Position numbers and translations under genes: made by a program. Positions 10,113 through 63,998 of a stretch of 64,000 nt of DNA are shown here, in pieces. The stretch is from positions 165,258,102 through 165,322,101 of the forward strand of contig NC_091132.1 in assembly GCF_040183065.1 (NCBI RefSeq), read 5' to 3'. The notes beneath the pieces were generated by a model, which saw nothing but the letters and a program-made list of their open reading frames with translations, was not told the DNA's origin and did no database searches. Numbering within the stretch: position 1 is the first letter of the stretch; every line of letters begins with the position of its first letter. This DNA comes from Periplaneta americana. Lineage: Eukaryota > Arthropoda > Insecta > Blattodea > Blattidae.

Positions 10113-10205
10113 ATGGACGCGATCAAGATGGAACCTGGGTCCGACCCAATGGGTATACACACAAGTGGTATCGCAGATATAGAAGAGAAGAAGCCTTTAT
10201 CTGAG
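10113..10205 (+). CDS. Unit A exon 1: N-terminus of C2H2 zinc-finger protein
   Basis: Thirty-one codons starting MDAIKMEPGSDP and ending KKPLSE, spliced at GAG|GTATAT (phase 0). The exon begins 5 bases before ATG, after TTTTCAG. The start is chosen because the same ATG heads the homologous exon in units B, C and D and an acceptor lies just upstream. It contains the SUMO-acceptor consensus I-K-M-E. It joins 10785-10922, 11246-11325 and 12195 onward. Intron 1 is 579 bp and holds nothing but AT-rich sequence conserved in the other units. Family role: N-terminal, finger-free region of a presumed nuclear regulator. I recognise no KRAB, ZAD, SCAN or BTB domain. Confidence 0.85.
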
Positions 10206-10784
10206 GTATATTGAGAGCAGTGACTATTTATTATCTAAATGCGTCATTTATAACTAGGAAGTGCATTCCTTTGTAATTAATTCTTCTTTTTCCACGAGAT
10301 GAAACACAACTGAAAAAGTTGAAATTTGTGAATGTGAAGTTCCAAACGGAATTTTATTTCACATAAAACACACATACTCAAAATTGTGTGAATAGTTGCT
10401 TTCAGGAAATATATATTAAAACCACAAAAATGTTGAAGTTTTTCTTGCTTCCATGGATTTTTAGAAGAACTTTTAAATAATTTAAAACTGAATCAACACC
10501 GGTAATAACTTATTTAGAATAACATTAACCTTTATGTTTTACTATGGGTCTTTCTGATCATATTGCAACAAAATATCATACACTAAATATATTCTATTAC
10601 ACGTATGTGTATCGTTACAACGTTTCTTAGATAAATTAATTTACTATTGGTTTTGGAATAGGTACATATACATTTGTTGACATCAGTATTAATAATAATG
10701 TGGAGGGTCTTTATAAATAGTTACGGGTTTTCGTGAACAACTTTTATGCTGTTTTGTCTAATTATTTTGTTCTTTATGTTGCAG

Positions 10785-10922
10785 GAAGGAAATTTATTAG
10801 ATTTGGACATCACTAAAATAAAAACTGAATGTATAGAACACAGGTATCACATGAAACCGGAGATAGTATTTGAGGAATCTGCAGTGCCAATTGACTTTCC
10901 CATGCTGAAGAGTGAAGCTGAG
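10785..10922 (+). CDS. Unit A exon 2: acidic linker with SUMO motifs
   Basis: Forty-six codons between GTTGCAG|GAAGG and GCTGAG|GTGAGT, both phase 0. The peptide begins EGNLLDLDITKIKTECIEH and ends MLKSEAE. Psi-K-x-E sites are I-K-T-E and L-K-S-E; M-K-P-E replaces M-K-S-E of units B and C. The exon is acidic with two hydrophobic patches (NLLDLD, VPIDFPML) that could be short interaction motifs. Intron 2 (323 bp) follows. No known domain is recognisable. Confidence 0.85.
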
Positions 10923-11245
10923 GTGAGTGCAGTCTATGAAGTGTGTTGGGCTGTAGTTCCCTCCCTGTTACTTTCTGGCTGATGTAGCTGCTACAGTCAT
11001 CCCAGTGATAACTTTTACCCTATCCAATTTTTGAGTTAATTGTGTTACTAGCACTGTTTAGATTATTTCAATCATATACCGTACTTGCTGGTAATCCATT
11101 TGTGGCACAATGGATGCCCACATCCTTCACAAAATATTTCCATTACTGACTTTACTTTAAAGATTGGATGAGTTGCACATTTTTACTGCCTGATTTTCAT
11201 GTATTATTGTGCTCTCTATCTGTTTTACGTAATCTTCTGCTACAG

Positions 11246-11325
11246 GAAGAGTTTTGTGAGTTGGATCAAGTGAAGGAGGTCAAACTGGAAGTAACAGCAG
11301 AGGAGAATGAAGTCTTGACTGAGAG
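11246..11325 (+). CDS. Unit A exon 3: acidic linker with VKLE motif
   Basis: Twenty-six codons plus two bases, between TGCTACAG|GAAGAG and GAGAG|GTGAGT (phase 2). The peptide begins EEFCELDQVKEVKLE and ends NEVLTE. V-K-L-E with an acidic stretch just downstream fits a negatively charged SUMO consensus. The trailing AG joins the T at 12195 to make Ser. Intron 3 (869 bp) contains the (ATT)n tract at 11458-11690 and a conserved pre-exon region (about 11690-12194). Confidence 0.85.
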
Positions 11326-11457
11326 GTGAGTGTAATATACGAGTGCCTAGTTTGCTGTTGGTTTTACTGCTTTATTTAAATAATGACAACATAAACATAT
11401 TTATAATCTCAAACTGGTTATTGTTTATATGAAAACTCCAGTACCACCATTAGTACT

Positions 11458-11617
11458 ACATTTATTATTATTATTATTGTTATTATTATTATTATTAATT
11501 ATTATTATTATTATTATTGTTATTATTATTATTAATTATTATTATTATTATTATTATAATTATTGTTATTATTATTAATTATTATTATTATTATTATTAT
11601 TGTTATTATTATTATTA

Positions 11618-11685
<68 letters not shown>

Positions 11686-11690
11686 ATTTG
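11458..11690. repeat. (ATT)n microsatellite in unit A intron 3
   Basis: About 230 bp of ATT with periodic AATTATTATT interruptions. Units B (25381-25435) and C (53397-53462) have shorter tracts in the same intron position, followed by the same TAATTTGTAC-type sequence, so the microsatellite predates the unit duplications. Confidence 0.9.
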
Positions 11691-12194
11691 TACCATAGTT
11701 GTTTATTTCATCGTATCACTGTCTTGGACTTCTATTGTCCAATGTCTGTTGTCCAGCACATAAACATTAATAATTAAATGAATAATTGAGGGGTTTGCGA
11801 ATTGAGATACACATAATCTAAGATTTTAAAACGCAGCTGAATAAAATGTTATACACGCACGCAGCCCTGTCCTGCAGATATGTAAATACAGTCCAAATAA
11901 AATTTCGCTACTATAATTATTCACTACATTTTAAACCGTTTTCCCGAAGAAGGGCGTATAGGTCTGTACGCCTTTCTTCCGGCAAAGCCCTCATTTATTG
12001 TTATTACTATCAATATTGCTGTTATGATTATTATAATTACTATTATTACTTAATTTTTTAATATGGTCTGTACAGAAGTAACTGAAGATGAAAGACCATT
12101 GTCAGTTTCTCCTATATTACTTTGCTTATGGTGGATATATCTCTTCATTGAAAGTCTAGACATTCTTTCCACTAATGACACTTATAATTGTTAG

Positions 12195-12636
12195 TGTTGC
12201 AGTTAGCCATAATAGTGGAGTTCCAAATTTCTGCGAAAATATTCCAGAAGAGTACGACGGCAAGAAATACGTTTCTGATATTAGCGGAATGTCTTTTCCC
12301 AACTTTTCAAAACTCAAATCGGGGGATTTCGAAAAGCATTCACGCGTGCTCACAGGCGGGAAACCGTTCAGTTGTGATGTGTGTGGAAAGAGTTTTTCCC
12401 AATTGGCACATCTCAGGGCGCATTCACTCGTGCACTTGGGAGTGAAACCATTCTGTTGCGGCGTGTGTGAGAAGTGTTTCTTAAGGTCTGGACATCTTAA
12501 AGCGCATTCAATGGTACACAGTGGCGACAAGCCATTCAGCTGTGACGTCTGTGGAAAGAACTTTTCTAAGTCCTACGACCTCAAGAGGCATTCACTCGTG
12601 CACTCAAACGACAAGCCATTCAGTTGTGACGTGTGA
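12195..12636 (+). CDS. Unit A exon 4: zinc-finger exon up to in-frame TGA
   Basis: The acceptor TTGTTAG|T gives the split Ser codon and the conserved SVAVSHNSGV start. The first finger is damaged: CDICG became SDISG, and a deletion fuses it to the second finger. Three complete C2H2 fingers follow (about 12370-12610). The next finger starts FSCDV and then has TGA at 12634-12636, where every other finger has TGT for the second zinc-binding Cys. The predicted product to this stop is 250 aa. It could be a short three-finger protein or a recent pseudogene. Exons 1-3 remain intact, which suggests either recent inactivation or a working short product. Confidence 0.75.
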
Positions 12637-13536
12637 GGAAAGTGCTTTTCAAACTCGGACTATCTCAAGAAGCATTCACGCGTGCACACAAACGAGAGCC
12701 CATTCAGTTGTGATGTGTGTGGAAGGAGATTTTTGCAATTGGCACAGCTTGAGAGGCATTCTCGCACGCACAAAAACGAGAGACCATTCAGTTGTGATGT
12801 GTGTGGAAAAAGTTTTTCGCAATTGGCACGTCTCGAGACGCATTCATACGTCCAATCAGGCGTGAAACCATTCAGTTGTGACGTATGTGGGAAGTGCTTT
12901 TCAAGGTCCTACGATCTCAAGAGGCATTCAGTCGTGCACACAAACGTGAAGCCATTCATTTGTGATGAGTGTGGAAAGAGTTTTTCAAACTCGGATTATC
13001 TCAAGAAGCATTCACGCGTGCATACGAGCGAGAGCCTATTCTGTTGTGATGTGTGTGGAAAGAGTTTTTCGCAGTTGGCACACCTTGAGAGACATTCACG
13101 CTCTCACATTGGCGCGAAACCATTCTGTTGTGATGTGTGTGAGAAGTGTTTAACAAGTTCTTCAAACCTTAAAACACATTTAATTATGCATACCGGCGAG
13201 AAACCATTCATTTGTGACGTTTGTGGAAAGTGTTTTTCGCTCTCGAAATACCGCGATATGCATTCACGCGTTCACTCGGGCGTGAAACCATTCTCTTGTG
13301 ACGTCTGTGGAATGAGTTTCTCGCGCTCCATACGTTTGAAAAAGCATTCGCGTGTTCATACAGGTGAAAAGCCATACAGTTGTGACGTATGTGGAAAAAG
13401 TTTTTCGCAATTCGCACATCTCAAGATGCATTCACGCGTGCACACAGGCGCGAAACCATTTTGTTGTGATGTGTGTGGGAAGTGTTTTGCAAGATCTTCA
13501 AACCTTAAAAGACATTTAATGTTGCACACTGGGTAG
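12637..13536 (+). pseudogene. Unit A: ten further fingers in frame after the stop
   Basis: The same frame stays open for 300 codons after the TGA. It encodes the rest of the interrupted finger and ten more fingers, each 84 bp apart, ending HLMLHTG and TAG at 13534-13536. One finger (about 12790-12855) has the last His changed to Gln (HSYVQ); the rest keep C2H2. Absence of any indel across 900 bp argues that the nonsense change is recent or that the region is still translated by some means. Just after the stop the array is cut by a PIF/Harbinger insertion at 13550 and continues in decayed form at 16143. Confidence 0.8.
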
Positions 13537-16142: not shown

Positions 16143-16900
16143 CTCCTATTGAGTTGTCATGTTTGTTGAAAGTGTTTTTCGCTCTCAAAATATCTCGATA
16201 GGCATTCACGCGTACACTAAGGTGTAAAACTATTACCACAGCGTACTATATACAGTCACGAAGCTTGAGTTTTGAGGGTGCTAGAAACAATAGACTGTGA
16301 CGGTATTATTTTGCACTTCCTGTAATGAGGCGATATTAGCGATCCTAGTGGTGAGCAACTACCTAATGTTTGCATAATTACTACATATTCAGCTTCGCGA
16401 CTGTGTATACTAGACTTTGCTATTACGCTGTGACGTCTTTGGGAAGACCTTTTTCGCTCTCCGTACATTTGAATAATCATTCACGCGTACGCACTAGTCA
16501 GAAACCATTCGTTTGTGAAGTGACTGGGAACTCTTATAGAAGCTCTTCAAATCTATATAAGGCATTCTTTCGTCCTTACTGTCATAGAGCCATTCAATAC
16601 AGACGTCAATGCAAAGTGTTCTTCTCGCGCGGAATCTCTCTCTTTGCATTCACGTGTTCATACAGATCTCAATGTGCATTCACGTATCCACAATTGAGTA
16701 GCCATTCAGTTGTGATGTGTGTGGGAATCTCCAGATGCCTTTTCGTGAAAAACCGTTCGGTTGTGATGTGTTTGGACTGGATTTTTCACGCTCGAAAGAC
16801 CTTAATCTGTATTCACGTATGCATACGTAAGAGAAAGTCTTCAGCTGCGTGTGTGTGAAATGCGTTTTTATGGCCCGCACATCTTAATATACATACATGC
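16143..16900 (+). pseudogene. Decayed zinc fingers, tail of unit A
   Basis: Finger fragments (VECFSRSKYLDRHSRVH-like at 16160-16215, CDVFGKTFFAL-like at 16425-16480) continue after the Harbinger insertion, with several frame changes. The 163-bp MITE at 16247-16409 interrupts them. Confidence 0.65.
16247..16409. mobile_element. 163-bp MITE, TIR TATATACAGTCACGAAGCT
   Basis: Ends TATATACAGTCACGAAGCTT and AGCTTCGCGACTGTGTATA match the 1.5-kb element at 1707-3225. Both copies follow a CACAG.GTA-like sequence in the tail of a finger exon, which suggests one insertion inherited through unit duplication, with internal loss in this copy. Confidence 0.6.
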
Positions 16901-23675: not shown

Positions 23676-23768
23676 ATGGACGTGATCAAGATGGAACCTG
23701 GGTCCGACCCAATGGGTATACAGACAAGTGGTATCGCAGATGTAGAAGAGAAGAAGCCTTTATCTGAG
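23676..23768 (+). CDS. Unit B exon 1: N-terminus of intact 15-finger protein
   Basis: Thirty-one codons (MDVIKMEPGSDPMGIQTSGI to KKPLSE), preceded by CATTTTTCAG|TCGTA and ending GAG|GTATAT. Predicted mRNA join: 23671-23768, 24346-24483, 24798-24877, 36613-37939, giving 545 aa. This is the only unit in the window with an uninterrupted finger exon. I-K-M-E is a SUMO consensus. A possible short 5'UTR intron with a GTAAGT donor lies about 65 bp upstream. No transcript evidence is available from sequence alone. Confidence 0.88.
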
Positions 23769-24345: not shown

Positions 24346-24483
24346 GAAGGAAATTTATTAGATGTCGACGTCACTAAAATAAAAACTGAATGTATAGACC
24401 ACAGGTATGACATTAAATCGGAGATAGTATTTGAGGAATCTGCAGTGCCAATTGACTTTCCCATGCTGAAGAGTGAAGCTGAG
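24346..24483 (+). CDS. Unit B exon 2: acidic linker with SUMO motifs
   Basis: Forty-six codons after TGTTACAG and before GTGAGT, phase 0 on both sides. Begins EGNLLDVDVTKIKTECIDHR and ends FPMLKSEAE. I-K-T-E and L-K-S-E fit psi-K-x-E; I-K-S-E (from HRYDIKSE) is a third in this unit. Intron 1 is 577 bp and intron 2 is 314 bp; both are clean of transposons. Confidence 0.88.
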
Positions 24484-24797: not shown

Positions 24798-24877
24798 GAA
24801 GAGTTTTGTGAGTTGGATCAAGTGAAGGAAGTCAAACTGGAAGTAACAGCAGAGGAGAATGAAGTCTTGACTGAGAG
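24798..24877 (+). CDS. Unit B exon 3: acidic linker with VKLE motif
   Basis: Twenty-six codons plus AG, between GCTACAG and GTGAGT. The amino-acid sequence is identical to unit A. The next intron is 11.7 kb in this unit (24878-36612) because of the composite insertion at 25676-36524, compared with 0.9 kb in unit A and 2.7 kb in unit C. Confidence 0.88.
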
Positions 24878-25435: not shown

Positions 25436-25992
25436 TAATTTGTACCATAGTTATTTATTTAATTGTATTAATTGTATGACCGCGTTAGACTTCTATTGTC
25501 CAGTGTCTGTTGTCGAGCACATAAATATTAATAATTAAATAAATAATTATTATTATTACTATCATTATTGCTGTTATGATTATTATAATTACTATTATTA
25601 ATTTTTGAAAGATAATCTATACAGAAGTAACTCAAGCTCATTGTCAATTGCTAATGGCATATGGGGTTCCAAATCTAGTAGTGGACACAATTAACCATTT
25701 TTTTTATTTAAATAAATTGTGAGTGGTTGATGTTTTAAGTGATTTATTTTTAAAAATATTCATCATATATTTAAACACATGTACATTCACTTAGGTATGT
25801 TTGATTATGGATGAATTTTTTGGCAAAATTGTATATCACTTTTTGTATAGTGAAGACAAATCTTAGTATTGGACACTCAAATTTTAGTAGTGGACATAAA
25901 AAAATTCAGTAGTGGACACCCAGTTAAAAATAACAAATGATCTGGAAAAAATGTAGTTCACCAGTAAACAACAAATAGACTGCCTTGTATTA

Positions 25993-27571
25993 TACAGGGT
26001 GTATCAAAAATACGTGTACAAACTTCAGGCATGGGTTCCTTACACCAAAAGAAGGAAAAAAGTTCATATGAACATATGTCCCATAATCCTTTGTTTCCCC
26101 GTTATTCATTTATTACTAAAAGTTTGCGTTCAACGGCCTTCGAGGTCCAACCTCAAAACTTCATTTCTTTATGCACTCATTCATACAAGGCTGTGACTCG
26201 TTGTATCAGAAATGGACTGCAGATGGCGAAGTGTTGCCATGGAGACTTGTTTACATTTGTCATTTGTCATTAGTCTGTCTTCAACGTTGCAATTGTGAAC
26301 GTGGAGTGAGTTAACGTGTTTCGTTCAACCATGGCAGGACGATATTCATTTCGTGAGCAGGCTGACATCATTTTTATGTATGGTCGCGCGAATGGTAATG
26401 GACGCGAGGCTGTACGGCTGTATCAGATGGCGTTTCCAGACCGAAGACAACCGAATCATCAAACCTTTGTTGCTGTGTATCGTCGCGTTGCTGAGACAGG
26501 AACCGTTGCACCACAGACTGGTGATCGAGGAAGACCAAGAATTGTTCGTATGCCGAATCTCGAAGAAGACATTTTACACTGTGCTGAAGACGATCCAGGT
26601 ATCAGTACAAGACAATTGGCTGTGACAACTGGTACATCACACAGTACAGCATGGAGGGTACTTCACGAGCAGCTCTTGTATCCGTATCATATGCAACGTG
26701 TGCAGGACCTTTCGCCTGCCGATTATCCACCACGGGAGAACTTTTGTCGATGGTTTCTAGCACAAATAGCCAAGCCATTGTTTGTCTCATCAGTTTTGTT
26801 TACAGATGAGGCAACGTTTGGGAGAGATGGAATTACCAATTTCCACAATGAACACGTATGGGCAGATCGTAATCCTCGTGCTGTATTTCAGGCTAGACAT
26901 CAGCAACAATTTAGGATTAATGTGTGGGCTAGAATTGTAGGTGACTGTCTGGTAGGTCCATACGTTCTACCAGCACGTCTTACAAGTGCTATCTACAGGG
27001 ACTTTATCCAAAACACTCTTCCAGAATTACTGCACGAAGATGTGCCTCTGAACATAAGACAAAACATGTGGTTCATGCATGATGGGGCTCCAGCACATTT
27101 TAGTCGCCTCGTTCGAGATACACTGACTGGTGTCTACCATGACAGATGGATAGGCAGAGGAGGACCAGTTCAATGGCCAGCACGTTCTCCCGACCTCAAT
27201 CCTTTGGATTTTTATCTTTGGGAGCACCTTAAACAATTGGTTTATGGAGCAGACATCCCGGATCAAGAAACTCTTCATCGACATGTCATGGAAGCCTGTG
27301 AAACCATTCGACATCATCCCGGAGTATTTGAAAGGGTGCGACAGTCCATTATTCGACGAGTGCATGCATGTCTAGAAGCAAGAGGAAGACATTTCAAGCA
27401 TTGGTTATGAGTTTTGTGTGTTGGCACATTATGAGTGTACCAATGTGTTGAACAGTTCTAAACGGGGAAACAATGGATTATGGGACATATGTTCATATGA
27501 ACTTTTTTCCTTCTTTTGGTGTAAGGAACCCATGCCTGAAGTTTGTACACGTATTTTTGATACACCCTGTA
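25993..27571 (+). mobile_element. Tc1/mariner-type element (DD41D), 111-bp TIRs, apparently intact
   Basis: The ends at 25993-26103 and 27461-27571 are inverted copies of each other over about 111 bp with one mismatch that I can find. They begin TACAGGGTGTATC, with TA as the probable target duplication. The whole element is 1.58 kb and contains one uninterrupted transposase gene. Near-identical TIRs and an open ORF indicate a very recent insertion. Confidence 0.92.
26331..27410 (+). CDS. Mariner-superfamily transposase, DD41D, intact
   Basis: 359 aa from MAGRYSF; an in-frame ATG five codons upstream (26316) is also possible. The N-terminus (about residues 5-70) resembles the helix-turn-helix region (DUF4817) found in many arthropod transposases (FREQADIIFMYGRANGNGRE). 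A second HTH, with STRQLAVTTGTSHSTAWRVL, follows at about 95-120. Catalytic motifs are FTDEATF (first Asp), FMHDGAPAH (second Asp) and SPDLNPLDFYLW (third Asp). Counting by hand, 41 residues separate the second and third catalytic Asp, the spacing known for rosa-type DD41D elements. The length is normal for the superfamily. No stop, frameshift or missing catalytic residue is seen, so it may be active. It is transcribed opposite to the host pogo element and in the same direction as the zinc-finger gene. Confidence 0.93.
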   Translation: MAGRYSFREQADIIFMYGRANGNGREAVRLYQMAFPDRRQPNHQTFVAVYRRVAETGTVAPQTGDRGRPRIVRMPNLEEDILHCAEDDPGISTRQLAVTTGTSHSTAWRVLHEQLLYPYHMQRVQDLSPADYPPRENFCRWFLAQIAKPLFVSSVLFTDEATFGRDGITNFHNEHVWADRNPRAVFQARHQQQFRINVWARIVGDCLVGPYVLPARLTSAIYRDFIQNTLPELLHEDVPLNIRQNMWFMHDGAPAHFSRLVRDTLTGVYHDRWIGRGGPVQWPARSPDLNPLDFYLWEHLKQLVYGADIPDQETLHRHVMEACETIRHHPGVFERVRQSIIRRVHACLEARGRHFKHWL

Positions 27572-27744
27572 TATATGAAGGAAATAATGTGGTAGATAAT
27601 TAAGATTGTTTAACCACTAGCCTTAAATCTAGAAAAACATAACTTGAAATTTTACAAAAATAACATTCAGACAAGAAAAAATCACACTAGGCCTAGGCCA
27701 TAGTTTCACTTATATTAATTTAATAGTCATTATGCATCGAGCCT

Positions 27745-33440: not shown

Positions 33441-34371
33441 TTAATGCAGGGAAGGTAGCTGTAATGCGAGTCTGCCACTGCGTGAGCGTTCTGCTCTGGC
33501 TTGGAATCGAAGTAGCTTTCGGAGCGAGAGGAGCTCTGGCACGATGTCATTTGAGCGGTGGCCATCTACAAACATTATCACAGGTCGTGCAATGTTTTCA
33601 TTCTTCAAAAATTCCATGTAATGATTCGAAATGTATTCGAAGAACACTTCGCTGTTCATCCAGCCACTCTCCAATAGACCAATTGCCCATAAATCTGGCA
33701 CAGAATCTGCAACATCTCGTGGCAATCTCTTGTACGGAAAAATGACGATAGGTGGCACAGTTTCTCTTCCTGCCGAGAAGCAACCCATTACTATTAACTG
33801 TTCCTTCTCATTGTTGATAAAAGTCCCCTCCACCCCGTGGTCCAAGGACTTTACCACTTTTTGGGCACAACATGAAGCCAGACTCGTCTGCGTTAAATAC
33901 CCGCCTTGGATGGTTTAGAACGTTCCTGAAGCCATCTGCAGTTAAAGTTAATTCAACTTCTTGAAACCACTTCTCGATAATCTTCTTTGACACTGATGCA
34001 CGTGATCGATTTAAACTCTCTGCATGTTTCTCGGTAATTACAGGATTGCCTTTCATAAATGCATGAAACCACGTCATTCCCGGGACGTTATTCGTGAAGG
34101 GATTGTGTCGTTTATCTGCATCAAGCACCCTCTTCACCTCATTGCATAACAAGTGCCTGGCAATTGGAAAACCCTTCCTAGCCAATGCTAAAACCCATTG
34201 TGCAAGGAGGTTTTCTTCAGCTGCTGTCAACGTACGTGCTGGGCCCATTCTTCTTTCTCCAGGAATAGTGCCACTACGCTTCCTGATTAGTGTTGATCTA
34301 GGGACACCGAAAGTGCTCGCAGCTTCCTTCTTTGTCATACCACTTCGTAATCCTGCTACAACGTCATTCAT
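33441..34371 (-). pseudogene. Pogo/Tigger-like transposase, N-terminal and DDE part
   Basis: On the minus strand from 34371: a pipsqueak-type HTH (KKEAASTFGVPRSTLIRKRS), a CENP-B-type HTH (about residues 50-115, with WFHAFMKGNPVITEKHAES), then FNADESGFM with the first catalytic Asp. A one-base frameshift at an A-run near 33845 separates this from the second part (MGCFSAGRETVPPIVIFPYK, then IMFVDGHRSN with the second catalytic Asp). The reading fails at about 33500, where the hAT relic begins. The family normally acts as a nuclear cut-and-paste transposase at TA sites; this copy is dead. Confidence 0.75.
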
Positions 34372-34645
34372 CTTCTACTCAGGATACTGGAGTGTAGGAC
34401 GTTTAAGCCCTTGCAACTAATGTAGGTCGCAGTCTTGTATTTGAAAAACCAAATCTATAAGAATATACAGAACCTTATTTAGTCCTACACAGTAAGAAGC
34501 ATCTCTAACAGAAATGAAAACACCCAAGAAGTGGGTTAAATCAACTAATAGTATTGGAAAATATTAAGCTGTCCATCATTAATTACTGTGTCCCCACCAT
34601 TAAGACCGCTATTTTAATAGAGGACCCCCATGTGTCCAGTACTTA

Positions 34646-36612: not shown

Positions 36613-37939
36613 TGTTGCAGTTAGCCATAATAGTGGAGTTGCAACATTCTGCGAGAATATTCCTGAAGAGGAGGACGGCAAGAAATACGATTGTGACATT
36701 TGCGGAATGTCTTTTCTCGACCTTGCAAGACTCGAAGGCCATTACCTCGAAGACAAATGTCACAAGGAATTCAATTGCGATGTGTGTGGAAAGTGTTTTT
36801 CCCGATCGGGGGATTTCGAAAAGCATTCACGTGTTCACTCAAGCGAGAAACAATTCAGCTGTGACGTTTGTGGAAAGAGTTTTTCTCGCTTGGCTCATCT
36901 ACAGAGGCATTCACTCGTGCACACAGGCGCGAAACCATTCAGTTGTAACGAGTGTGGGAAGTGCTTTTCAAATTCCGACAATCTCAAGACACATTCACGC
37001 GTGCACACAGGCGCTAAACCTTTCAGTTGTAACGTGTGTGGGAAGTGCTTTTCAAAGTCCGACTCTCTCAGGAATCATTCACATGTGCACACGGGCGCGA
37101 AACCATTCTGTTGTAACGAGTGTGGGAAGTGCTTTTCAAACTCCAACAATCTCAAGCGACATTCACGCGTGCACACAGGCGCGAAACCTTTCAGGTGTGA
37201 CGTCTGTGGGAAGTGTTTATCAAGCTCTTCAATTCTTAAAAGGCATTCAGTGCTTCACACCAGCAAGAAGCCATTGAGTTGTGACGTTTGTGGAAAGTGT
37301 TTTTCCCGATTGTGGGATTTCGAAAATCATTCACGCGTTCACTCGAGCGACAATCAATTCCGTTGTGACGTTTGTGGAAAGTGCTTTACAAGGTCCATAA
37401 ATTTCAAGAAACATTCACGCGTGCACGCAGACGCAAAAACATTCAGTTGTGATGTGTGTGGAAAGAGATTTTCGCGCTTGGCTCATCTAGAGAGGCATTC
37501 ACTCGTGCACACAGGCGCGAAACCATTCAGTTGTAACGTGTGTGGGAAGTGCTTTTCAAACTCCGACAGTCTCAAGAGGCATTCACTCGTGCACACAGGC
37601 GCGAAACCTTTCAAGTGTGACGTGTGTGGGAAGTGTGTATCAAGCTCTTCAGATCTGAAAAACCATTCAGTGGTTCACACCAGCGAGAAGCCATTCGTTT
37701 GTGACGTTTGTGGAAAGTGTTTTTCGCACTCGAACTATCTCTATAAGCATAAATTTCTACACTCAGGCGTGAAACCATTCAGTTGTGACGTGTGCGGAAT
37801 GAGTTTTTCGCGCTCCGCATATTTGAATACGCATTCACTCGTACACACAGGGGAGAAGCCATTCGTTTGTGACGTGTGTGGCAAATGCTATAAGACGTCT
37901 TCACAACTGAAGAAGCATTCCCGCCTGCACATTCTATGA
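36613..37939 (+). CDS. Unit B exon 4: intact 15-finger C2H2 exon
   Basis: The acceptor ATTGTCAG|T at 36612/36613 gives the Ser split codon and SVAVSHNSGVATFCENIPEE, then 15 fingers. The first (CDICGMSF...HYLEDKCH) has a long H-X6-H or C2HC end; the other 14 are regular C-X2-C-X12-H-X3-H at 84-bp spacing with TGAKPF/SSEKQF-like linkers. The stop TGA follows SRLHIL. No ligand is lost and no stop occurs. The contact positions -1/2/3/6 differ among fingers (for example R-G-D-K, R-A-H-R, N-D-N-T, S-S-I-R, H-N-Y-K). Predicted role: sequence-specific nuclear DNA binding, with the acidic N-terminus as effector. The target is unknown. The first AATAAA downstream (38264) lies inside the 738-bp TIR element. 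Confidence 0.9.
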
Positions 37940-39094: not shown

Positions 39095-40130
39095 GTGTCT
39101 AAAAAGTTCGGTGAATGATGTCATATCTGAACGGCAACTTGGCGCACGTGCTTGCGCATGCGTATGGTTCTTCAGAGACTTGGAGAGAATCGATACACAG
39201 CATGCAATGCATGTGACTGGCAGTGTAAACAGACTGCGACCAGTTGAACATAGTGTGAGAGGAAGTGTCACAGCGCAATGGAGCAACGTGTAAACATCAA
39301 GTTCTGCTACAAATTGGGTAAGACTGCAACGGAGACACACGGAATGTTGGTGCAGGTGTACAGGAGGGAAGCCGTGAGCAGTAAATGTGTTTACGAATGG
39401 TTTAAACGCTTCCGTGAAGGGAAGGAAACAATTGAGGATGAGCCACGTTCAGGTCGGCCATCGACATGCAGAACCCCAGAAATGATCGAGAAAGTGCGAC
39501 AAATGCTGGCACAAGATCGGCGACTGACTCTAAGATCGATTGCGTAGGAATTGGACATTAGCAAGGACACGGTGCACACCATCGTCCGCGATGATTTGGG
39601 TAAGCAGAAGATCTGCTCCCGATTTGTGCCGCACAAGCTCACAGACGAGCAGAAAGCAAAACAAATGGAAACTTCTGGTGATTTCATTTCCATGTGTGAT
39701 CAGGATCCATTGCTTCTGAAAATCATCGTCACGGGAGATGAGATCTTGTGCTACCATTTCGATCCGGAATCAAAACGGCATTCGATGTCATGGTGTTCAC
39801 CGACTTCCCCGCGACCAAAAAAAAAAAGCCGTCTGCAAAAATCCAAGGTGAAAACACTGTGATCGCCGTCTTCGACAACAACGGCATCATCCACAAGGAA
39901 TTTGTTCCTACAGGTCAAACCATTAATGCTGCATTTTACCAGTCCCTTTTGAACCGATTGCTACAGCGTATCCGGCGGGTTCGGCCAGAGTTCCACAAGA
40001 CTGGAAAATGGCTGCTGCTCCATGACAATGCCCCTGCACACTGAGCGATCCGTGTTCGCCAATTCCTGGCTCAGAAGATGGTAACTGTTCTTGAACACTC
40101 TCCATACTCCTCTGATCTCGCCGCCTTCAA
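39095..40130 (+). mobile_element. Mariner element copy 1, broken
   Basis: Left terminus GTGTGTCTAAAAAGTTCGGT, then transposase coding from 39278: the N-terminal HTH region (KFCYKLGKTATETHGMLVQV, YEWFKRFREG), then a stop at 39545 and a continuation (ELDISKDTVHTIVRDDLG; VTGDEILCYHFDPESK with the first catalytic Asp). After a frameshift in the poly-A at 39820 it continues GENTVIAVFDNNGIIHKE and LLLHDNAPAH. The 3' third is missing. Classic mariner family, inactive. Confidence 0.8.
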
Positions 40131-40216
40131 GCGGGGAAACAGTAAAAAGTCCGCAGGAGCCAGATCAGGGGAGTACGGAGGATGTTCAAGAACAGTTATC
40201 TTCTGAGCCAGGAATT
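40067..40216. repeat. Inverted repeat joining the two mariner pieces
   Basis: CCAATTCCTGGCTCAGAAGA (40068) and its inverted partner ending GCCAGGAATTGG (40216) form arms of about 60 bp around CGCCTTCAAGCGGGGAAACA. It marks a fold-back or inversion junction between copies 1 and 2. Confidence 0.75.
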
Positions 40217-40217
40217 G

Positions 40218-41031
40218 GAAAAGTTCGGTGAATGGTATCAGAAAGCAAAAAAAACAAAGTTACAAACAAATTTTCTTTATTGCCCTTCAAAATAGTCGCC
40301 ACCCGCTACAACACACTTTTGACAACGTTCGTACAACTTCTGGAAACTATCAGCAAAAGCCTCCTGTGGAATCGATCGCAGAACGGCTGTCACACGATCT
40401 TTGATGGCATTCACATCCGCAAAACGTTCACCTTTCATGGCCGCCTTCAAGCGGGGAAACAGGAAGAAGTCCGCAGGAGCCAGATCAGGGGAGTACGGAG
40501 GGTCATTGTCATGGAGCAGCATCCATTTGCCAGTCCTGTGCAACTCAGGCCGAACCCGCCGGGTACGCTGTAGCTTTTATTTTATTTTTAGTAGGTTATT
40601 TTACGACGCTTTATCAACAGCTTTGGTTATTTAGCGTCTGAATGATATGAAGGTGATAATGCCGGTGAAATGAGTCCGGGCTCCAACACCGAAAGTTACC
40701 CAGCATTTGCTCATATTGGATTCAGGGAAAACCCCAGAAAAACCTCAACCAGGTAACTTGCCCCGACCGCGAATCGAACCCGGTCCACCTTTTTTGGCGG
40801 CTAGACGTGCTGTTACTCCACAGGCGTGGACTGTACGCTGTAGCAATCGGTTCTAAACGGACTGGTAAAATGCAGCATTAATGGTTTGACCTGCAGGAAC
40901 AAGTTCCTTGTGGATGATACCGTTGTTGTCGAAGAAGGCGATCAACAGTGTTTTCACCTTGGATTTTTGCATACGGCTTTTTTTTTTTTGGTCGCGGGGA
41001 AGTCGGTGAACACCATGACATCGATTGCCGT
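40218..41031 (-). mobile_element. Mariner element copy 2, inverted and 5'-truncated
   Basis: Starts (element 3' end) AAAAGTTCGGTGAATGGTAT. On the minus strand it encodes HRTGKWMLLHDND, then YSPDLAPADFFLFPRLKAAM, then SFQKLYERCQKCVV and GDYFEGQ. About 30 residues between the second and third catalytic Asp are deleted. It is interrupted by a SINE at 40576-40845. It is tail-to-tail with copy 1. Confidence 0.8.
40576..40845 (-). mobile_element. tRNA-derived SINE family 1 with TSD GTACGCTGTAGC
   Basis: Reverse copy inside mariner copy 2. The 12-bp sequence GTACGCTGTAGC occurs on both sides (about 40563-40574 and 40846-40857). Read on the minus strand it has the tRNA-like head with GGGTTCGATTCGCGGTCGGG, the CAAGTTACCTGGTTGAGGTT body and the GCGTCGTAAAATAACC end. 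Confidence 0.88.
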
Positions 41032-46715: not shown

Positions 46716-47830
46716 GTGTACTTACTTACTTACAAATGGCTTTTAAGGAACCCGAAGGTTCATTGCCGCCCTCACATAAGCCCGCCATCGGTCCCTATTC
46801 TGTGCAAGATTAATCCAGTCTCTATCATCATATCCCACCTCCCTCAAATCCATTTTAATAGTATCCTCCCATCTACGTCTCGGCCTCCCCAAAGGTCTTT
46901 TTCCCTCCGGTCTCCCAACTAACACTCTGTATGCATTTCTGGATTCGCCCATACCTGCTACATGCCCTGCCCATCTCAAACGTCTGGATTTAATGTTCCT
47001 AATTATGTCAGGTGAAGAATACAATGCGTGCTGTTCTGCGTTGTGTAACTTTCTCCATTCTCCTGTAACTTCATCCCGCTTAGCCCCAAATATTTTCCTA
47101 AGCACCTTATTCTCAAACACCCTTAACCTATGTTCCTCTCTCAGAGTGAGAGTCCAAGTTTCACAACCATAAAGAACAACCGGTAATATAACTGTTTTAT
47201 AAATTCTAACTTTCAGATTTTTTGACAGCAGACTAGATGATAAAAGCTTCTCAACCCAATAATAACACGCATGTCCCATATTTATTCTGTGTTTAATTTC
47301 CTCCCGAGTGTCATTTATATTTGTTACTGTTGCTCCAAGATATTTGAATTTTTGCACCCCTTCGAAGGATAAATCTCCAATTTGTAATTTCCATTTCGTA
47401 CTATATTCTGGTCACGAAACATAAACATATACTTTGTCTTTTCGGGATTTACTTCCAAACCGATCGCTTTACTTGCTTCAAGTAAAATTTCCGTGTTTTC
47501 CCTAATTGCTTGTGGATTTTCTCCTAACACATTCACGTCATCCGCATAGACAAGAAGCTGATGTAACCCGTTCAATTCTAAACCCTGCCTGTTATCCTGA
47601 ACTTTCCTAATGGCATATTCTAAAGCGAAGTTAAAAAGTAAAGGTGATAGTGTATCTCCCTGCTTTAGCCCGCATTGAATTGGAAAAGCATCAGATAGAA
47701 ACTGACTTATACGGACTCTGCTGTATGTTTCACTGAGACACATTTTAATTAATCGAACTAGTTTCTTGGGAACACCATATTCAATAAGAATATCATATAT
47801 TACTTCCCTCTTAACCGAGTCATATGCCTT
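46716..47830 (-). mobile_element. LINE (RTE-like), 5'-truncated, TSD TTTACAATGTTGAC
   Basis: The 14-bp TTTACAATGTTGAC flanks the element (46702-46715, 47831-47844). On the minus strand: RT with [20 protein letters not shown] and [14 protein letters not shown] (active-site YADD intact), a small deletion-frameshift near 47345, then the C-terminal domain [38 protein letters not shown] and the end AAMNLRVP. The tail is (GTAA)n. Five-prime truncation is typical of target-primed insertion. Confidence 0.9.
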
Positions 47831-47844
47831 TTTACAATGTTGAC

Positions 47845-49909
47845 ATTACTGGACATAAGTAATCCAGAAACTTATGTGTCACGGTCTTCTATGTGGATTG
47901 CCGTCAAGCTAGCTTAATCACTTTTTGTGAGAAAATATACTAATATAAATTTGCTGTATAGATCTGGTCTTATGTTTCTATACTAATCGTCTCCTTCTCC
48001 AGTCACAGCTGAAAACAGGTATATAAATGTGATTGTTTCAATGAGCAGTGGGCAATATACTGCATTTTTTTTTTCACAAAAATGTAGGAGAAAACGACCA
48101 ATTTTATCGAATGCGTGATCGTCCACGGAACAATTCGCTGAAGTTGAGAAACTGACGTAATAATGAATGTACGATTGGAAAGATAGAATGTAGGTTATTA
48201 TTTTCTAATGTTCTGATGGATTATAGTCGAACAGAATAGTGGGAGAAAAGTATAACCAATGTTTCGCAACGAATTGGCTCTTAATTAAGATGTATTTACA
48301 TCTATACACCTGTCCAAATAGATAGATATACATCACAAAGAATATTTTGCTCAGTTATCCTATTTTACTGCATGTGGTGTGGTTATGAGCCTACGTATAT
48401 GGCTAGAATTGTCTACTTTAAACTTCCGCCCACATTTTCCGAGCACCTGGTCAAACTGGAAATGGATCTCCACAAAATGTAATAGCCAAAATAATCATCT
48501 CTGTAGAAAAAAATATCAGTTACGATTAGTGTAACTAATTTAGACAATTACGCATTTCTGTTTTTAAATATTAAATTTTGTGCCCGCAAATTGAAATTCC
48601 TAATCTAACTATTAATATTTGTGTTATTCTTTAGTATAAACAGAATTTTGAGAAAGGGAATTGACACTTTTTTTTAAATAAATTGAAGGGCAAGATTTGA
48701 TTTCTTCTCGTAGATGGTAATATGGAGGCACAGTATGTAAGAGATTTCAAGTTCCCTGTGTAATCGAAATCGGTAATCACTTATATTGTATCTCAATAAC
48801 TATGTAGAGCGATCGGTAATTTCATAGAAACTATATTATCTTCACTTCAGTTATTTTCTACTATCGATATGCGAAGTCCACTTAGTTTTTGGTTCGTAAG
48901 ATGAATCGATAAATCGAATTGCTATTAGACTATTTTGATATTTTGACGTTTTAGAGAATTGTACGTCGAGCATTTTGCTGGTTTAAATTTGGATATAAAT
49001 TGTGAATTATAAACTTATTGGATGACCCATGTACTTTTCTTTCTTTATTCAATGCTATGTCTTTCGTGTCCAATCTTTTAGTTATTACTACCTCTGTTTC
49101 GTACTTTAGTCATCTGACAATATATATCGTTCTAAAGCCTTTCCGAAACTAATTTGTCTATTCCTACCTTTTTTTTTGTTACTTTTTATTGTCTCTATTT
49201 TCGCGACACATACTTTTCATTGCCACTTCTATCTCTTACTTCTTATACTCATATCACATATATATATTTTTTTTTTCGTAATATCTATCCCACCTGATGC
49301 TATATTCCTTACTAATTCTTAGTCCTTACTGATATGTAACATGGCTGACATACTTCTCGATGATTTTGCCAACATGTAACATGGCTAACATACTTCTCGA
49401 TCATTTTGCTAATTACCTCACTTCACTAATTAATTTACCAACTTTACATTATATTATTACACTTTACATAATTTAAGCGACTCATACACTTATCTTCCAT
49501 TATTCTATACTGTGTCTTTTCATGTCTTTTGTTTTCTCTTTTCACTTCGTCTATTTCGTACTTTACTCGTCCGAAACTACGTAATATAGACATCTGCATT
49601 TTGTTGAAAATGGCGGAACGAATCCATTTGACTAAATCATATACAGAACTTAGTGACAAAAACTATCGTGAAATCATTGATTTTTTTTGTTAGGCAACTA
49701 CTGTAACTTATTCCTAGTATCACATGCTCATAATTATGTACTGTCGTACACATTCGTTTGTATTTTTGTGGTAACTTTTGTGTGTTGTGGCGCGTACACA
49801 GAAATACGCACACTACGCAGATGTGGACTTATCATTGCCAAGCTAGTAAGTCTATCTGCGTATTTCACATACTTCATATTAACTTATGTTACTTAATTTT
49901 CTTTTTCAG
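47845..49909. other. Unit C upstream region
   Basis: Paralogous in patches to units B and D (47860-48080, 49290-49720). Positions 49610-49693 hold a short ORF (MAERIHLTKSYTELSDKN...) whose counterpart in unit D lacks the ATG. Positions 48130-49280 show no gene. It ends in the acceptor CTTTTTCAG at 49901-49909. Confidence 0.5.
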
Positions 49910-49914
49910 TCGTA

Positions 49915-50007
49915 ATGGACGTGATCAAGATGGAACCTGCGTCCGACCCACTGGATATACAGACAAGTGGTATCGCAGATATAGAAGAGAAGAAGCCTTT
50001 ATCTGAG
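49915..50007 (+). CDS. Unit C exon 1: N-terminus of C2H2 protein
   Basis: Thirty-one codons, MDVIKMEPASDPLDIQTSGI to KKPLSE, spliced at GAG|GTATAT. It differs from unit B at four residues, and keeps I-K-M-E. Predicted join: 49910-50007, 50553-50690, 51014-51093, 53785 onward. Intron 1 is 545 bp. A GTAAGT donor for a possible 5'UTR intron lies at about 49846. Confidence 0.87.
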
Positions 50008-50552: not shown

Positions 50553-50690
50553 GAAGAAAATTTATTAGATTTGGACGTCACAAAAATAAAAACAGAATGT
50601 ATTGACCACAGATATGACATGAAATCGGAGATAGTATTTGAGGAATCTGCAGTGCCAATTGACTTTCCCATGCTGAAGAGTGAAGCTGAG
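50553..50690 (+). CDS. Unit C exon 2: acidic linker with SUMO motifs
   Basis: Forty-six codons, EENLLDLDVTKIKTECIDHR to FPMLKSEAE, phase 0 on both sides. The second residue is Glu rather than Gly. I-K-T-E, M-K-S-E and L-K-S-E are present. Intron 2 is 323 bp and clean. Confidence 0.87.
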
Positions 50691-51013: not shown

Positions 51014-51093
51014 GAAGAGTTTTGTGAGTTGGATCAAGTGAAGGAGGTCAAAGTGGAAGTAACAGCAGAGGAGAATGAAGTCTTGACTGAGAG
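51014..51093 (+). CDS. Unit C exon 3: acidic linker, VKVE motif
   Basis: Twenty-six codons plus AG. Identical to units A and B except Leu to Val in the SUMO site (V-K-V-E), which keeps the consensus. Intron 3 (2691 bp) holds a SINE and a large compound microsatellite. Confidence 0.87.
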
Positions 51094-53784: not shown

Positions 53785-54526
53785 TGTTGCAGTCAGCCAT
53801 AATAGTGGTGTTGCAAAATTCTACGGAAATAGTCGTGAAGAGGACGACGGCAAGAAATACGATTGTGACATTTGCGGAATGTCTTTTCTCGACTCTGCAA
53901 GACTCAAAAGCCATTACCTCGTAAACAAATGTCACAAGGAATTCAATGGAGATGTGCGTGGAAAGTGTTTTTCACGATCGGGGGATTTCGAAGAGCATTC
54001 ACGCGTTGACTCAAGCGAGAAACCATTCAGCTGTGGCGTGTGTGGCAGGTTGTTTTCTAAATCCCACCATCGCAACCAGCATTCACGCGTGCACACAGAC
54101 GAGAGACCATTCAGTTGTGATGTGTGTGGAAAGAGTTTTTTGCAATCGTCACATCTGCAGACCCATTCACGCGTGCACACTGGCGTGAAACAATTGAGTT
54201 GTGACATGTGTGGAAAGTGTTTTTCAAAGTCCTACGATCTCAAGAGGCATTCACTTGTGCACACAAACGAGAGGTCATTCAGTTGTGATGTGTGTAGCAA
54301 GAGATTTTCGCTTTTGGATTATCTCAAGAGGCATTCAAGCGTGCACACAGGCGGGAAACCATTCTGTTGTGATGTCTGTGGAAAGTGCTTTTCAAAGTCC
54401 TACGATCTCAAGAGGCATTCACTTTTGCACACAAACGAGAGGTCATTCAATTGTGATGTGTGTGGCAAGAGATTTTCGCGTTTGGATTATCTCAAGAGGC
54501 ATTCACGCGTGCACACAGGCGCGTAA
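53785..54526 (+). CDS. Unit C exon 4: zinc-finger exon up to first stop
   Basis: The acceptor ATTGTTAG|T and the split Ser codon give SVAVSHNSGVAKFYGNSREE, then fingers. The first is noncanonical (CDICG...HYLVNKCH). The second is destroyed (GDVRG for CDVCG and Asp for the last His). Six regular fingers follow. The TAA at 54524-54526 replaces the AAA Lys of the next linker (TGA-stop where others have TGAKPF). The predicted protein to this point is 350 aa. It could be a shortened but working six- or seven-finger protein. Confidence 0.78.
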
Positions 54527-55707
54527 CCATTCTGTTGTGACGTATGTGGAAAGTGCTTTTCAAACTCCGGCTATCTCAAGAATCATTCACTCGTGCACAC
54601 GGCCGCAAAAACATTCAGTTGTGAAGTGTGTAGAAAGAATTTTTCGCGCTTGGCTAATCTCGAGAGGCATTCACTCGTGCACTCAGGCGCGAAACCATTC
54701 TGTTGTGACGTATGTGGGAAGTGCTTTTCAAAGTCCGAGTCTCTCAAGAGGCATTCACTTGTGCACACAGGCGCGAAACCTTTCAAGTGTGACGTGTGTG
54801 AGAAGTGTTTTTCAACGTCTTCAATTCTTAAAACTCATTCAGTGGTTCACACCAGTGAGAAGCCATTCAGTTGTGACCTTTGTGGAAAGTGTTTTTCGCA
54901 CTGGAACTATCTTTATAAGCATACAATTCTACACTCTGGCGTGAAACCATTCAGTTGTGACGTCTGCGGAATGAGTTTTTCGCGCTCCGCATATTTGAAT
55001 ATCCATTCACGCGTCCACACAGGGGAGAAGCCATTCGTTTCTGACGTGTGTGGAAAGTATTTTTCAAAGTCGAGTGATCTGAAGAGGCATTCACTTGTGC
55101 ACACAAACGAGGGGTCATTCAGTTGTGATGTGTGTGGCAAGAGATTTTCGCGTTTGGATTATCTCAAGAGGCATTCACGCGTGCACACAGGCTCGTAACC
55201 ATTCTGTTGTGACGTATGTGGAAAGTGCTTTTCAAACTCCGACTACCTCAAGAATCATTCACTCGTGCACACGGCCGCAAAAACATTCATTTGTGAAGTG
55301 TGTAGAAAGAATTTTTCGCGCTTGGCTAATCTCGAGAGGCATTCACTCGTGCACTCAGGCGCGAAACCATTCTGTTGTGACGTATGTGGGAAGTGCTTTT
55401 CAAAGTCCGAGTCTCTCAAGAGGCATTCACTTGTGCACACAGGCGCGAAACCTTTCAAGTGTGACGTGTGTGAGAAGTGTTTTTCAACGTCTTCAATTCT
55501 TAAAACTCATTCAGTGGTTCACACCAGCGAGAAGCCATTCAGTTGTGACGATTGTGGAAAGTGTTTTTCGCACTCGAACTATCTCTATAAGCATACAATT
55601 CTACACTCTGGCGTGAAACCATTCAGTTGTGACGTCTGCGGAATGAGTTTTTCGCGCTCCGCATATTTGAATATGCATTCACGCGTCCACACAGGGGAGA
55701 ACCCATT
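54527..55707. repeat. In-register 672-bp tandem duplication (8 fingers)
   Basis: CACACGGCCGCAAAAACATT occurs at 54595 and 55267, and both copies are preceded by a TAA stop and followed by the same six fingers with a few differences. 672 is exactly 8 x 84, so finger phase is kept. Homologous YDLKRH..LDYLKRH finger pairs at 54230-54510, 55070-55195 and 55825-55945 are the likely crossover sites. Confidence 0.85.
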
Positions 55708-55966
55708 CGTTTGTGACGTGTGTGGAAAGAGTTTTTTGCAATCGGCACATCTCCAGACCCATTCACGCGTGCACACAGACGTGAAACAATTGAGTTGTGA
55801 CGTGTGTGGAAAGTGTTTTGCAAAGTCCTACGATCTGAAGAGGCATTCACTTGTGCACACAAACGAGAGGTCATTCAGTTGTGATGTGTGTGGCAAGAGA
55901 TTTTCGCGTTTGGATGATCTCAAGAGGCATTCACGCGTGCACACAGGCGGGAAACCATTCTGTTGA
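54527..55966 (+). pseudogene. Unit C: seventeen more fingers in frame after the stop
   Basis: The frame continues without indels for 480 codons with two more stops: TAA at 55196-55198 in the same linker position as the first, and TGA at 55964-55966 at a zinc-binding Cys codon. Eight fingers lie between stops 1 and 2 and nine between stops 2 and 3. One finger (about 55035-55100) has Ser for its first Cys. Positions 54527-55035 and 55199-55707 are near-identical, 672 bp apart. Confidence 0.8.
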
Positions 55967-60528: not shown

Positions 60529-60532
60529 AATT

Positions 60533-62390: not shown

Positions 62391-62395
62391 TCGTA

Positions 62396-62488
62396 ATGGA
62401 CGTGATCAAGATGGAACCTGGGTCCGACCCAATGGGTATACATTCAAGTGGTATCGCAGATGTAGAAGAGAAGAAGCCTTTATCTGAG
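62396..62488 (+). CDS. Unit D exon 1: N-terminus of C2H2 protein
   Basis: Thirty-one codons, MDVIKMEPGSDPMGIHSSGI to KKPLSE, spliced at GAG|GTATAT. I-K-M-E is kept. It joins 63080-63217 and 63919-63998; the finger exon is beyond the window. Intron 1 is 591 bp. Confidence 0.87.
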
Positions 62489-63079
62489 GTATATTGAGAG
62501 CATTTACTATTTATTATCTAAATGCCCCATTTATAACTATGGAGCACATTCCTTTGTAATTAATTGTTTTTCTTGCACGAGGTGAAGCACAACTGAAAAA
62601 AATGTTGCTGAAAAATGTTCAAAATTATGTACGTGAAGTTCCAAACGGAATTTTATATCAAATTAAACATGTATTGTCACAAATTCATATGAGTACTTAC
62701 ATTCAGGAAATATATTACAAACACAAAAGTCTTGAAGTTTTCTTACTCGCATTGATTTTTGGAAGAGCTTTTAATTAATTCAAAACTAAATCAATATTAG
62801 CTTACTTAAAATAACATTAACCTTTATATTGCATTGTGGTTGCTTATGATCATACAGACAACATAATATCACACAGTAAAATATATTCTTTTACTAGTAT
62901 CTGCTGTGTTACGAGAGTTTTCAGATAAACTGTTTTACTTCTTTTTTTTCGAATAGGTACACGTGAGTTCGAAGACATCAGTGCCAATGAAAATGTGGAC
63001 GGACGTTATAAAAATTCACGGAGTTTTTGTGAACAAATTTTATACTATTTTGTTTAATTATTTTGTTCTTTATTTGCAG

Positions 63080-63217
63080 GAAGGGAATTTATTAGATTTG
63101 GACGTCACGAAAATAAAAACTGAATGTATAGACCACGGATATGACGTGAAATCAGAGGTGACATTTGAGGAAACTGCAGTGCCAATTGTCTTTCCGGTGC
63201 TGAAGAGTGAAGCTGAG
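63080..63217 (+). CDS. Unit D exon 2: acidic linker with SUMO motifs
   Basis: Forty-six codons, EGNLLDLDVTKIKTECIDHG to FPVLKSEAE. The most diverged copy: V-K-S-E replaces M-K-S-E (a better SUMO consensus), and VPIVFPVL replaces VPIDFPML. Phase 0 on both sides. Intron 2 is 701 bp, about 380 bp longer than in other units, owing to extra blocks near 63290-63430 and 63630-63870 that I cannot assign. Confidence 0.87.
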
Positions 63218-63918
63218 GTGAGAGCAGTCTATGAAGTGTGTTGGTCGCTAGTTCTCTCTATCTTATTTACTGGCTGGTGTGGCTGTGCAGTAAAGTGACC
63301 AGCGAATGTATTAGTTGCTCTCATTCTTTGAATTTCTTCATGCTGTAGACATTACTAAATCTTTTCCGCCTCATTTTTGGCGTAGTGCCTGCGAACTGAG
63401 TGTTCGGTGATTCATATTAATCTTCATGTTTTCATGGCCAGTGATAATTTTTACCTTGCCAATTTGTGACTTAATAATTTTACTAATCCTGTTTAGTTTA
63501 TTTGAATCATATACGTATTTGCTGGTAATACACTAGAGTGAAAATGGAAGCTCACCTCCTTCATAAAATGTACCCACTACTGACTTCACTCTAAAGTTTG
63601 GATGAGTTGTGGTAATTTTTACTCCCTGACAGCTGTGAGCATCTCAGAACATCGTGCGAGACTCGTCATTTGCACTTTCACTTGTCACAGTTTAGTGCAA
63701 ATGTATTAAGTACGCGATATATCATACAAAATGCAATCAATTCCGTTTTTAATATTTTGCACTTATTTCCAAATCAAGTTTCTGCCAACAATTCTTATAT
63801 TGTATACTGCATTGGTAGAATCTATATTCTAATCTCTGGAGTATATAAACTGCCACGCATTTATTTTCATGTATTACTGTTGTCCTATGTGTCTGTTTTA
63901 CATAATCTTCTGCTACAG

Positions 63919-63998
63919 GAAGAGTTTTGTGAGTTGGATCAAGTGAAAGAGGTCAAACTGGAAGTGACAGCAGAAGAGAATGAAGTCTTGACTGAGAG
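63919..63998 (+). CDS. Unit D exon 3: acidic linker, VKLE motif
   Basis: Twenty-six codons plus AG. The protein is identical to units A and B, with three silent changes (AAA for AAG, GTG for GTA, GAA for GAG). The donor GT is the last two bases of the window, so the gene continues to the right. Confidence 0.87.

Follow-up and report, generated by a model that had tools for sequence, protein, structure and literature searches.

A candidate SUMO-acceptor tail in a large clustered family of C2H2 zinc-finger genes of Periplaneta americana

Introduction

In tetrapods, KRAB genes join an N-terminal effector to a separate zinc-finger array, and the class has expanded while its finger contacts changed fast. 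Insects possess ZAD genes, a large finger class that has expanded in particular lineages and whose N-terminal module, ZAD, is a folded zinc-binding domain. This study concerns a stretch of 64,000 nucleotides from the cockroach Periplaneta americana (the window; bases 165,258,102-165,322,101 of contig NC_091132.1, here C16, in a genome of 3.23 Gb). It carries four N-terminal exon sets, units A to D, of a clustered zinc-finger family that is comparable to both classes, but whose N-terminal tail, unlike ZAD, matches no described domain in the searches reported below.

Other comparable systems have been described. FiNZ genes of cyprinid fish number in the hundreds, combine a separate finger exon with a short upstream N-terminal region that is rich in Glu and resembles no known domain, and form that lineage's own parallel to KRAB (PMC10547256). 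These features recall the cockroach family, which is nevertheless set apart by description: the FiNZ region has 28 residues in one exon and is accompanied by knock-down data, whereas here 103 residues are spread over three exons with repeated psi-K-x-E motifs. The ZF271-like/APEZ genes of Hemiptera are likewise insect C2H2 genes in tandem clusters, with broken copies and without KRAB; no domain besides the fingers is reported for them (PMC6444547), whereas a conserved N-terminal motif array is found here, the two being compared by description. The aphid and milkweed bug expansions in the same source, again with no domain reported there besides fingers, occur in insects without a direct KAP1 orthologue (PMC6444547). 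Zinc-finger families are also known to differ greatly between termites and Blattella (PMC6482461).

The SUMO machinery recognizes the consensus psi-K-x-E (PMC7915335). In the KRAB system the SUMO step takes place on the TRIM28 cofactor (PMC7915335), whereas the sites described here are on the zinc-finger protein itself. Drosophila Bonus, like mammalian TIF1, bears an N-terminal psi-K-x-E; its single IKQE is SUMOylated, and this is required for silencing and for the interaction with SetDB1 (PMC10672805). Bonus has one working site on a TIF1-family cofactor (PMC10672805), whereas in the cockroach five or six candidate sites lie on a family of proteins that bind DNA. No description of this N-terminus appeared among the papers listed by searches of the open-access literature.

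We regard it as probable, on the evidence below, that the window samples a large clustered C2H2 family whose effector would be a short tail that is probably unfolded. Exon 1 of this tail would contribute one SUMO-acceptor site, exon 2 three and exon 3 one or two, five or six in all.

Results

The N-terminal exon sets and their motifs

The four exon sets on which the original prediction was built were confirmed. All lie on the plus strand with compatible splice sites and phases (Table 1). The coding exons of each unit comprise 31 codons, 46 codons, and 26 codons plus two bases of a split one, which make a finger-free N-terminus of 103 residues, unlike the single-exon FiNZ domain. A splice acceptor stands five bases upstream of the ATG in every exon 1, which implies a non-coding leader exon, and the phase 2 end of exon 3 fits a finger-exon acceptor ending in TTAG or TCAG. 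The final letter R in the translation of exon 3 is the codon spanning the splice donor, and becomes S once spliced; it was retained in the motif shuffles, the close-set ratios and the diverged-set analysis.

Every one of units A-D contains five psi-K-x-E motifs: IKME, IKTE, MKPE/IKSE/MKSE/VKSE (A/B/C/D), LKSE and VKLE (VKVE in C). Shuffled sequences carry a mean of 0.53-0.56 motifs per 104-residue unit (100,000 shuffles each), and those reaching five or more number 8, 5, 5 and 7 per 100,000 for A, B, C and D. The sites named by the original prediction are thus all present, far above the shuffles. The motif which it had placed as a fifth in most units occurs in all four, and the L-to-V change of unit C, which it had taken as keeping the consensus, falls on the free x position and therefore says nothing on the consensus. 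In diverged copies the excess is repeated, with 18 motifs in 20 exon-1 sequences (2.0 expected), 54 in 19 exon-2 sequences (2.9 expected) and 38 in 20 exon-3 sequences (3.2 expected). A chance origin of the motifs is ruled out by the shuffles of A-D and of the diverged copies.

Exon 3 of units A-D has 27 residues and a single motif. The diverged form has 28 residues and, in 17 of the 20 sampled copies, two motifs, usually VK(D/E)E and LKLE, so that the usual total of the family would be six when pooled across separate exon samples. The longer form is also found in L030, L036, L038 and L039, with VKEE arising through an extra Glu in the first three. The 437 residues of unit B beyond the tail hold zero motifs, an unremarkable absence since their shuffles give just 0.33. 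A phosphorylation-dependent motif, psiKxExxSP, was looked for by eye and not found (the sequence is IKMEPGSDP). At the start of exon 2, a stretch [VIL]LDL resembling a SUMO-interaction motif (SIM) occurs in 30 of 42 distinct sequences, and a looser form in 38 of 42; its reading as a SIM is a lead only, taken from the residues themselves.

Copy number and distribution

M-D-x-I-K-x-E-P, as a start pattern, has 569 matches in the genome as against 4 for the reversed pattern, a count that includes near-identical segmental or assembly duplicates. Family membership of these starts was judged through 20 sampled loci of 9.9 kb around exon-2 matches; in 15 of them the N-terminal exons are accompanied on the same strand by a finger array (at least five canonical fingers in a single frame). 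A first similarity search returned 620, 1445 and 724 candidates for exons 1, 2 and 3. Of these, 150 for each exon were scored, and all 150 scored exon-2 matches lie at E <= 2.4e-10. Among the matches listed, most fall on C16 at about 150-183 Mb and on C17 below 17 Mb, with smaller groups on C2, C3, C4, C5, C6, C9, C12 and C15. Tandem clustering of finger arrays together with broken copies is thus shared with the ZF271-like/APEZ genes. Finger matches at C16:180.1-180.9 Mb and C17:0.1-0.6 Mb have equal scores and frame lengths, possibly as an assembly duplicate or a segmental copy. An open frame of 1838 codons at C17:4784025 was set aside, its end being a run of N.

Two relatives on contig C2 (L082, L083) begin MDVIKTEP and continue into an open stretch unlike exon 2 of the window, with IKVE and IKHE in one and IKLE and LKIE in the other; this is a weak observation made by eye in motif-bearing frames only. 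Over 1.2 kb at the other six distant loci, an exon-2-like stretch (IKAE, IKSE) was seen in L084 only.

Conservation of the motif residues

The exact start MDVIKMEP occurs 152 times. When a single position is freed, the count becomes 154 for Lys, 160 for Glu, 164 for psi and 346 for x. Freeing Lys and x together (MDVI-any-any-EP) gives 352 matches against a reversed-pattern background of 7, and Lys is present in 346 of them; x is other than Met in 194 of these 346. Lys is thus retained in practically all starts while x is free. Of the six starts without Lys, five appear among the matches listed and none of these lies within a finger-gene cluster. The eight without Glu include, among the matches listed, two Asp and two Gln, and the twelve without Ile include four Val, one Leu and one Asn. 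These patterns require intact flanking codons and therefore favour working copies. MDVIRMEP, with Arg for Lys, was found at C8:124922235 and C8:131264696, outside finger clusters; both may be copies of another repeat.

Residue comparisons used a close set, consisting of the window units and L021-L040 (24 units), and a set of diverged loci. L024, L032 and L039 yielded no exon 1, which left 21 of the 24 units with one. After removal of exact duplicates, 37 of 40 exon-1 and 42 of 43 exon-2 sequences were kept for counts of motif intactness. L033 was omitted from the exon-1 count and from the residue tallies, and L048, which has the same DNA as L047, was dropped from the diverged set. For close-set ratios, units with an exon-3 insertion were omitted, leaving 20 of 24, of which 18 could be joined. 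Two alignments, A1 (23 of 44 exon copies, without L059, in which K24 is lost) and A2 (20 of 41), were drawn from the window, L021-L040 and the diverged loci. L001-L008 were unused, and L009-L020 overlap other loci or were used only where named.

The exon-1 motif is intact in 35 of 37 sequences (35 of 38 counting L033), and the three exon-2 motifs, in turn, in 41, 39 and 38 of the 42 distinct sequences. Lys of the first exon-2 site is present at 33 of 34 places, and both exon-3 motif lysines in 20 of 20 diverged copies. The loss of Lys in most members, which the original prediction had named as fatal to it, was not seen; loss is rare. In A1, whose 23 copies are of exon 2, five of the seven invariant columns are a motif K or E, the others being F38 and E46, and E46 adjoins the splice site. 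The exon-2 Lys-11 just before motif 1 is lost in 19 of 19 diverged copies while K13 is kept.

Across the diverged sets the mean pairwise difference is 0.067 in the 12 motif K/E columns and 0.43 in the six x columns. It is 0.36 in the 92 columns other than motif K/E (p=3e-6) and 0.31 in the 29 other charged columns (p=1e-4), by Mann-Whitney tests on columns that are not fully independent. Synonymous differences in the diverged motif K/E codons reach a proportion (pS) of 0.42-0.71 while amino-acid change is rare; the motif codons vary synonymously, and the constraint therefore acts on the protein.

Ratios of nonsynonymous to synonymous change (dN/dS) were obtained from Nei-Gojobori counts with a codon bootstrap of 1000 replicates. 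For diverged copies, in which synonymous differences amount to 0.31-0.53, they are 0.25 (0.16-0.38) in exon 1, 0.43 (0.28-0.64) in exon 2 and 0.16 (0.10-0.25) in exon 3, and the bootstrap never reached 1 in 1000. Close copies give 0.45 for exon 2, 0.26 for exon 3 and 0.47 (0.30-0.73) for the joined exons.

Finger exons and intactness of the units

Unit B is the only unit of the window that is open throughout. Its exons 1-3 and finger exon form a single open frame of 541 amino acids with 14 canonical fingers that match PF00096 (E=2.2e-73), as expected of a C2H2 family. Finger exons are paired with N-termini by order and phase; the pairing in unit B, which would span an intron of 11.7 kb with transposons in it, is inferred. 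The original prediction of zinc-finger genes held in that arrays follow A, B and C, but two of the three contain premature stops and unit D has a fragment only: the 7 kb that follow it (locus L081) contain no more than a two-finger piece. The two TAA codons of unit C are 672 bases apart and occupy equivalent places in the two copies of an internally duplicated finger segment; the stop therefore probably predates the duplication. In the broken finger exon of an earlier unit, finger-like sequence past the stop at 1315 runs on in another frame.

Finger contact positions (-1, 2, 3, 6) change faster than the rest: pN, the nonsynonymous counterpart of pS, is 0.30 there, with pS 0.33 and dN/dS 0.89, as against 0.085, 0.20 and 0.40 at non-contact positions. 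These values come from exon pairs above 70% identity, fewer than half of the 28 pairs formed by 8 arrays. The contrast is consistent with arrays that switch target while the effector stays constant.

Table 1. Exons of the zinc-finger units in the window (positions counted from its first base)
Feature	Positions	Strand	Remarks
Unit A exon 1	10113..10205	+	31 codons, IKME; acceptor five bases before ATG
Unit A exon 2	10785..10922	+	46 codons; IKTE, MKPE, LKSE
Unit A exon 3	11246..11325	+	VKLE; phase 2 end
Unit A zinc-finger exon	12207..13536	+	predicted start (from phase and acceptor); TGA in frame at 12634-12636, following three canonical fingers
Unit B exon 1	23676..23768	+	IKME
Unit B exon 2	24346..24483	+	IKTE, IKSE, LKSE
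Unit B exon 3	24798..24877	+	VKLE; phase 2
Unit B zinc-finger exon	36625..37939	+	open; 14 canonical fingers
Unit C exon 1	49915..50007	+	IKME
Unit C exon 2	50553..50690	+	IKTE, MKSE, LKSE
Unit C exon 3	51014..51093	+	VKVE; phase 2
Unit C zinc-finger exon	53797..55966	+	22 canonical fingers; in-frame TAA at 54524 and 55196
Unit D exon 1	62396..62488	+	IKME
Unit D exon 2	63080..63217	+	IKTE, VKSE, LKSE
Unit D exon 3	63919..63998	+	VKLE
Broken zinc-finger exon, earlier unit	628..1633	+	first frame five canonical fingers, stop at 1315

Domain searches

Pfam gave zero families at E<=10 both for 23 exon-2 sequences and for the N-termini of A and B in joined form, although the HMMER filters discard most matches above about 0.1. 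NCBIfam gave no match to the N-terminus, which is weak evidence as the library is prokaryotic, and PDB sequences gave none either (best E 1.1). The observation that no KRAB, ZAD, BTB or SCAN domain is visible is borne out by Pfam, which places the family in none of these four classes, and no profile of a known domain that might account for the conservation emerged from the three libraries. By the charge-hydropathy boundary formula, the tail falls on the unfolded side.

Discussion

In the cockroach family, whose start has 569 matches in the genome, an array of SUMO sites forms a conserved candidate effector. If it acts as one, it would stand beside KRAB and FiNZ as an effector composed of linear motifs, and proteins in genome-scale number would probably be a major target of SUMO in this animal. 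DNA targets would be selected by the finger array, which changes fast, and Ubc9 would attach SUMO to several lysines of the tail. The SUMO cluster might then recruit repressors bearing SUMO-interaction motifs, such as the SetDB1 machinery contacted by Drosophila Bonus, and these would silence the target. HP1 and the Mi-2/HDAC complexes are other candidate recruits. The parallels with FiNZ and KRAB suggest by analogy that the targets may be transposons (PMC10547256). It is also possible, though doubtful, that insects evolved a further means of arming a mass-produced zinc-finger repertoire, in which the acceptor array and the adjoining SIM-like [VIL]-L-D-L take the place of a folded domain for cofactor binding, each DNA-bound protein both carrying and gripping SUMO; a KAP1-like adaptor would be bypassed and SUMO-SIM silencing bodies would be nucleated on transposons. 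The original prediction of a SUMO-dependent effector is partly supported by the excess of psi-K-x-E and the constraint on its residues, as expected of SUMO substrates, while SUMO attachment and the recruitment of repressors are what we infer.

Several observations weigh against this reading. Some residues outside the motifs are kept equally well among diverged copies: D18, D37 and F38 of exon 2 in 19 of 19, C4 of exon 3 in 20 of 20, and K26 and K27 of exon 1 in 18 of 20 each. Motifs are sometimes lost. The VKLE-type motif of exon 3 is missing in L021 and L024 (2 of 24 among the window and L021-L040) and also in L019 and L020, the exon-1 motif Glu of L033 has been removed by a small deletion, and in exon 2 K13 is replaced by E in L037 and K24 by N in L032 and by T in L059. 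Sampling by similarity search is itself biased towards conserved copies. Among close copies, dN/dS of exon 1 is 0.95-0.98, at a pS of just 0.06-0.07; motif positions including psi give 0.55 (0.47 elsewhere), with 0.130 at the ten motif K/E codons and 0.135 at other charged residues. The close set thus fails to single out the motifs from other charged residues; it is the diverged copies and the pattern counts that supply the contrast. A ratio near 1 in exons 1-3 had been named as evidence against the original prediction; it is absent from all three exons of diverged copies and present in exon 1 of close ones. The higher pS at finger contacts (0.33 vs 0.20) implies that finger shuffling or misalignment may inflate the finger contrast.

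The tail may alternatively be SUMOylated for turnover or nuclear placement, and not for repression; for instance, SUMO-targeted ubiquitin ligases could clear surplus protein. Clustered sites suit the multi-mono- or poly-SUMO signals that recruit such ligases (PMC7915335), and the conservation of the motifs fits equally well; the present results do not separate turnover from a silencing effector. Nevertheless, KRAB and FiNZ, the studied examples of expanded zinc-finger families bearing an N-terminal effector, act in silencing (PMC10547256), and we hold the turnover explanation to be unlikely. It is also unlikely that the tail is a small module that folds or binds, either by dimerising or as an acidic partner of cofactors, with K and E preserved by the needs of a fold or interface and the likeness to SUMO sites incidental. 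Such a module would account for D18, D37, F38 and C4, conserved as strongly as the motifs, and for F38 and E46 as the other invariant columns of A1, E46 adjoining the splice site; the exon-3 stretch VK(D/E)ELKLEVTAEENE could form a helix. It accounts less readily for a variable hydrophobic psi, a fixed K, a free x and a fixed E at five or six places in three exons, for the loss of Lys-11 beside a retained K13, or for a charge and hydropathy on the unfolded side.

Conservation might also reflect merely recent duplication or gene conversion among units that are largely decaying copies. The finger arrays of A and C are broken, D has a nearby finger fragment only, exon 1 of close copies has a ratio near 1, and identical copies exist (L047, L048). 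However, diverged copies combine synonymous differences of 0.31-0.53 with dN/dS of 0.16-0.43, and their motif codons, at a pS of 0.42-0.71, rarely alter the amino acid; this explanation is accordingly highly improbable. Relaxed decay of the whole family is ruled out by the diverged ratios, despite the broken state of A and C and possibly of D.

Other features of the window

The long intron of unit B contains, at 25991-27573, a transposon that looks young, with inverted ends of 113 bases (99% complementary) and a transposase-like frame of 366 codons that matches DUF4817 above the cut-off and DDE_3 and a Tc3-type helix-turn-helix (HTH) weakly. A mariner-like element with a Mos1-type HTH frame lies at 39254-40944; its nested inverted arms (39860-39970/40834-40944 and 39960-40042/40492-40574) appear as if one copy had inserted in or beside another. 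On the minus strand, 33441-34374 and 47327-47845 hold broken transposase pieces (DDE_1; a weak Tc5-type HTH) and a fragment of RVT_1 reverse transcriptase. The segment 30471-31760 is a long AT-rich array with copies spaced at multiples of about five bases, and it is open in several frames because of this repeat. Between A and B, a decayed zinc-finger-like remnant was recognized by eye at 16367-16858, and is perhaps a lost unit.

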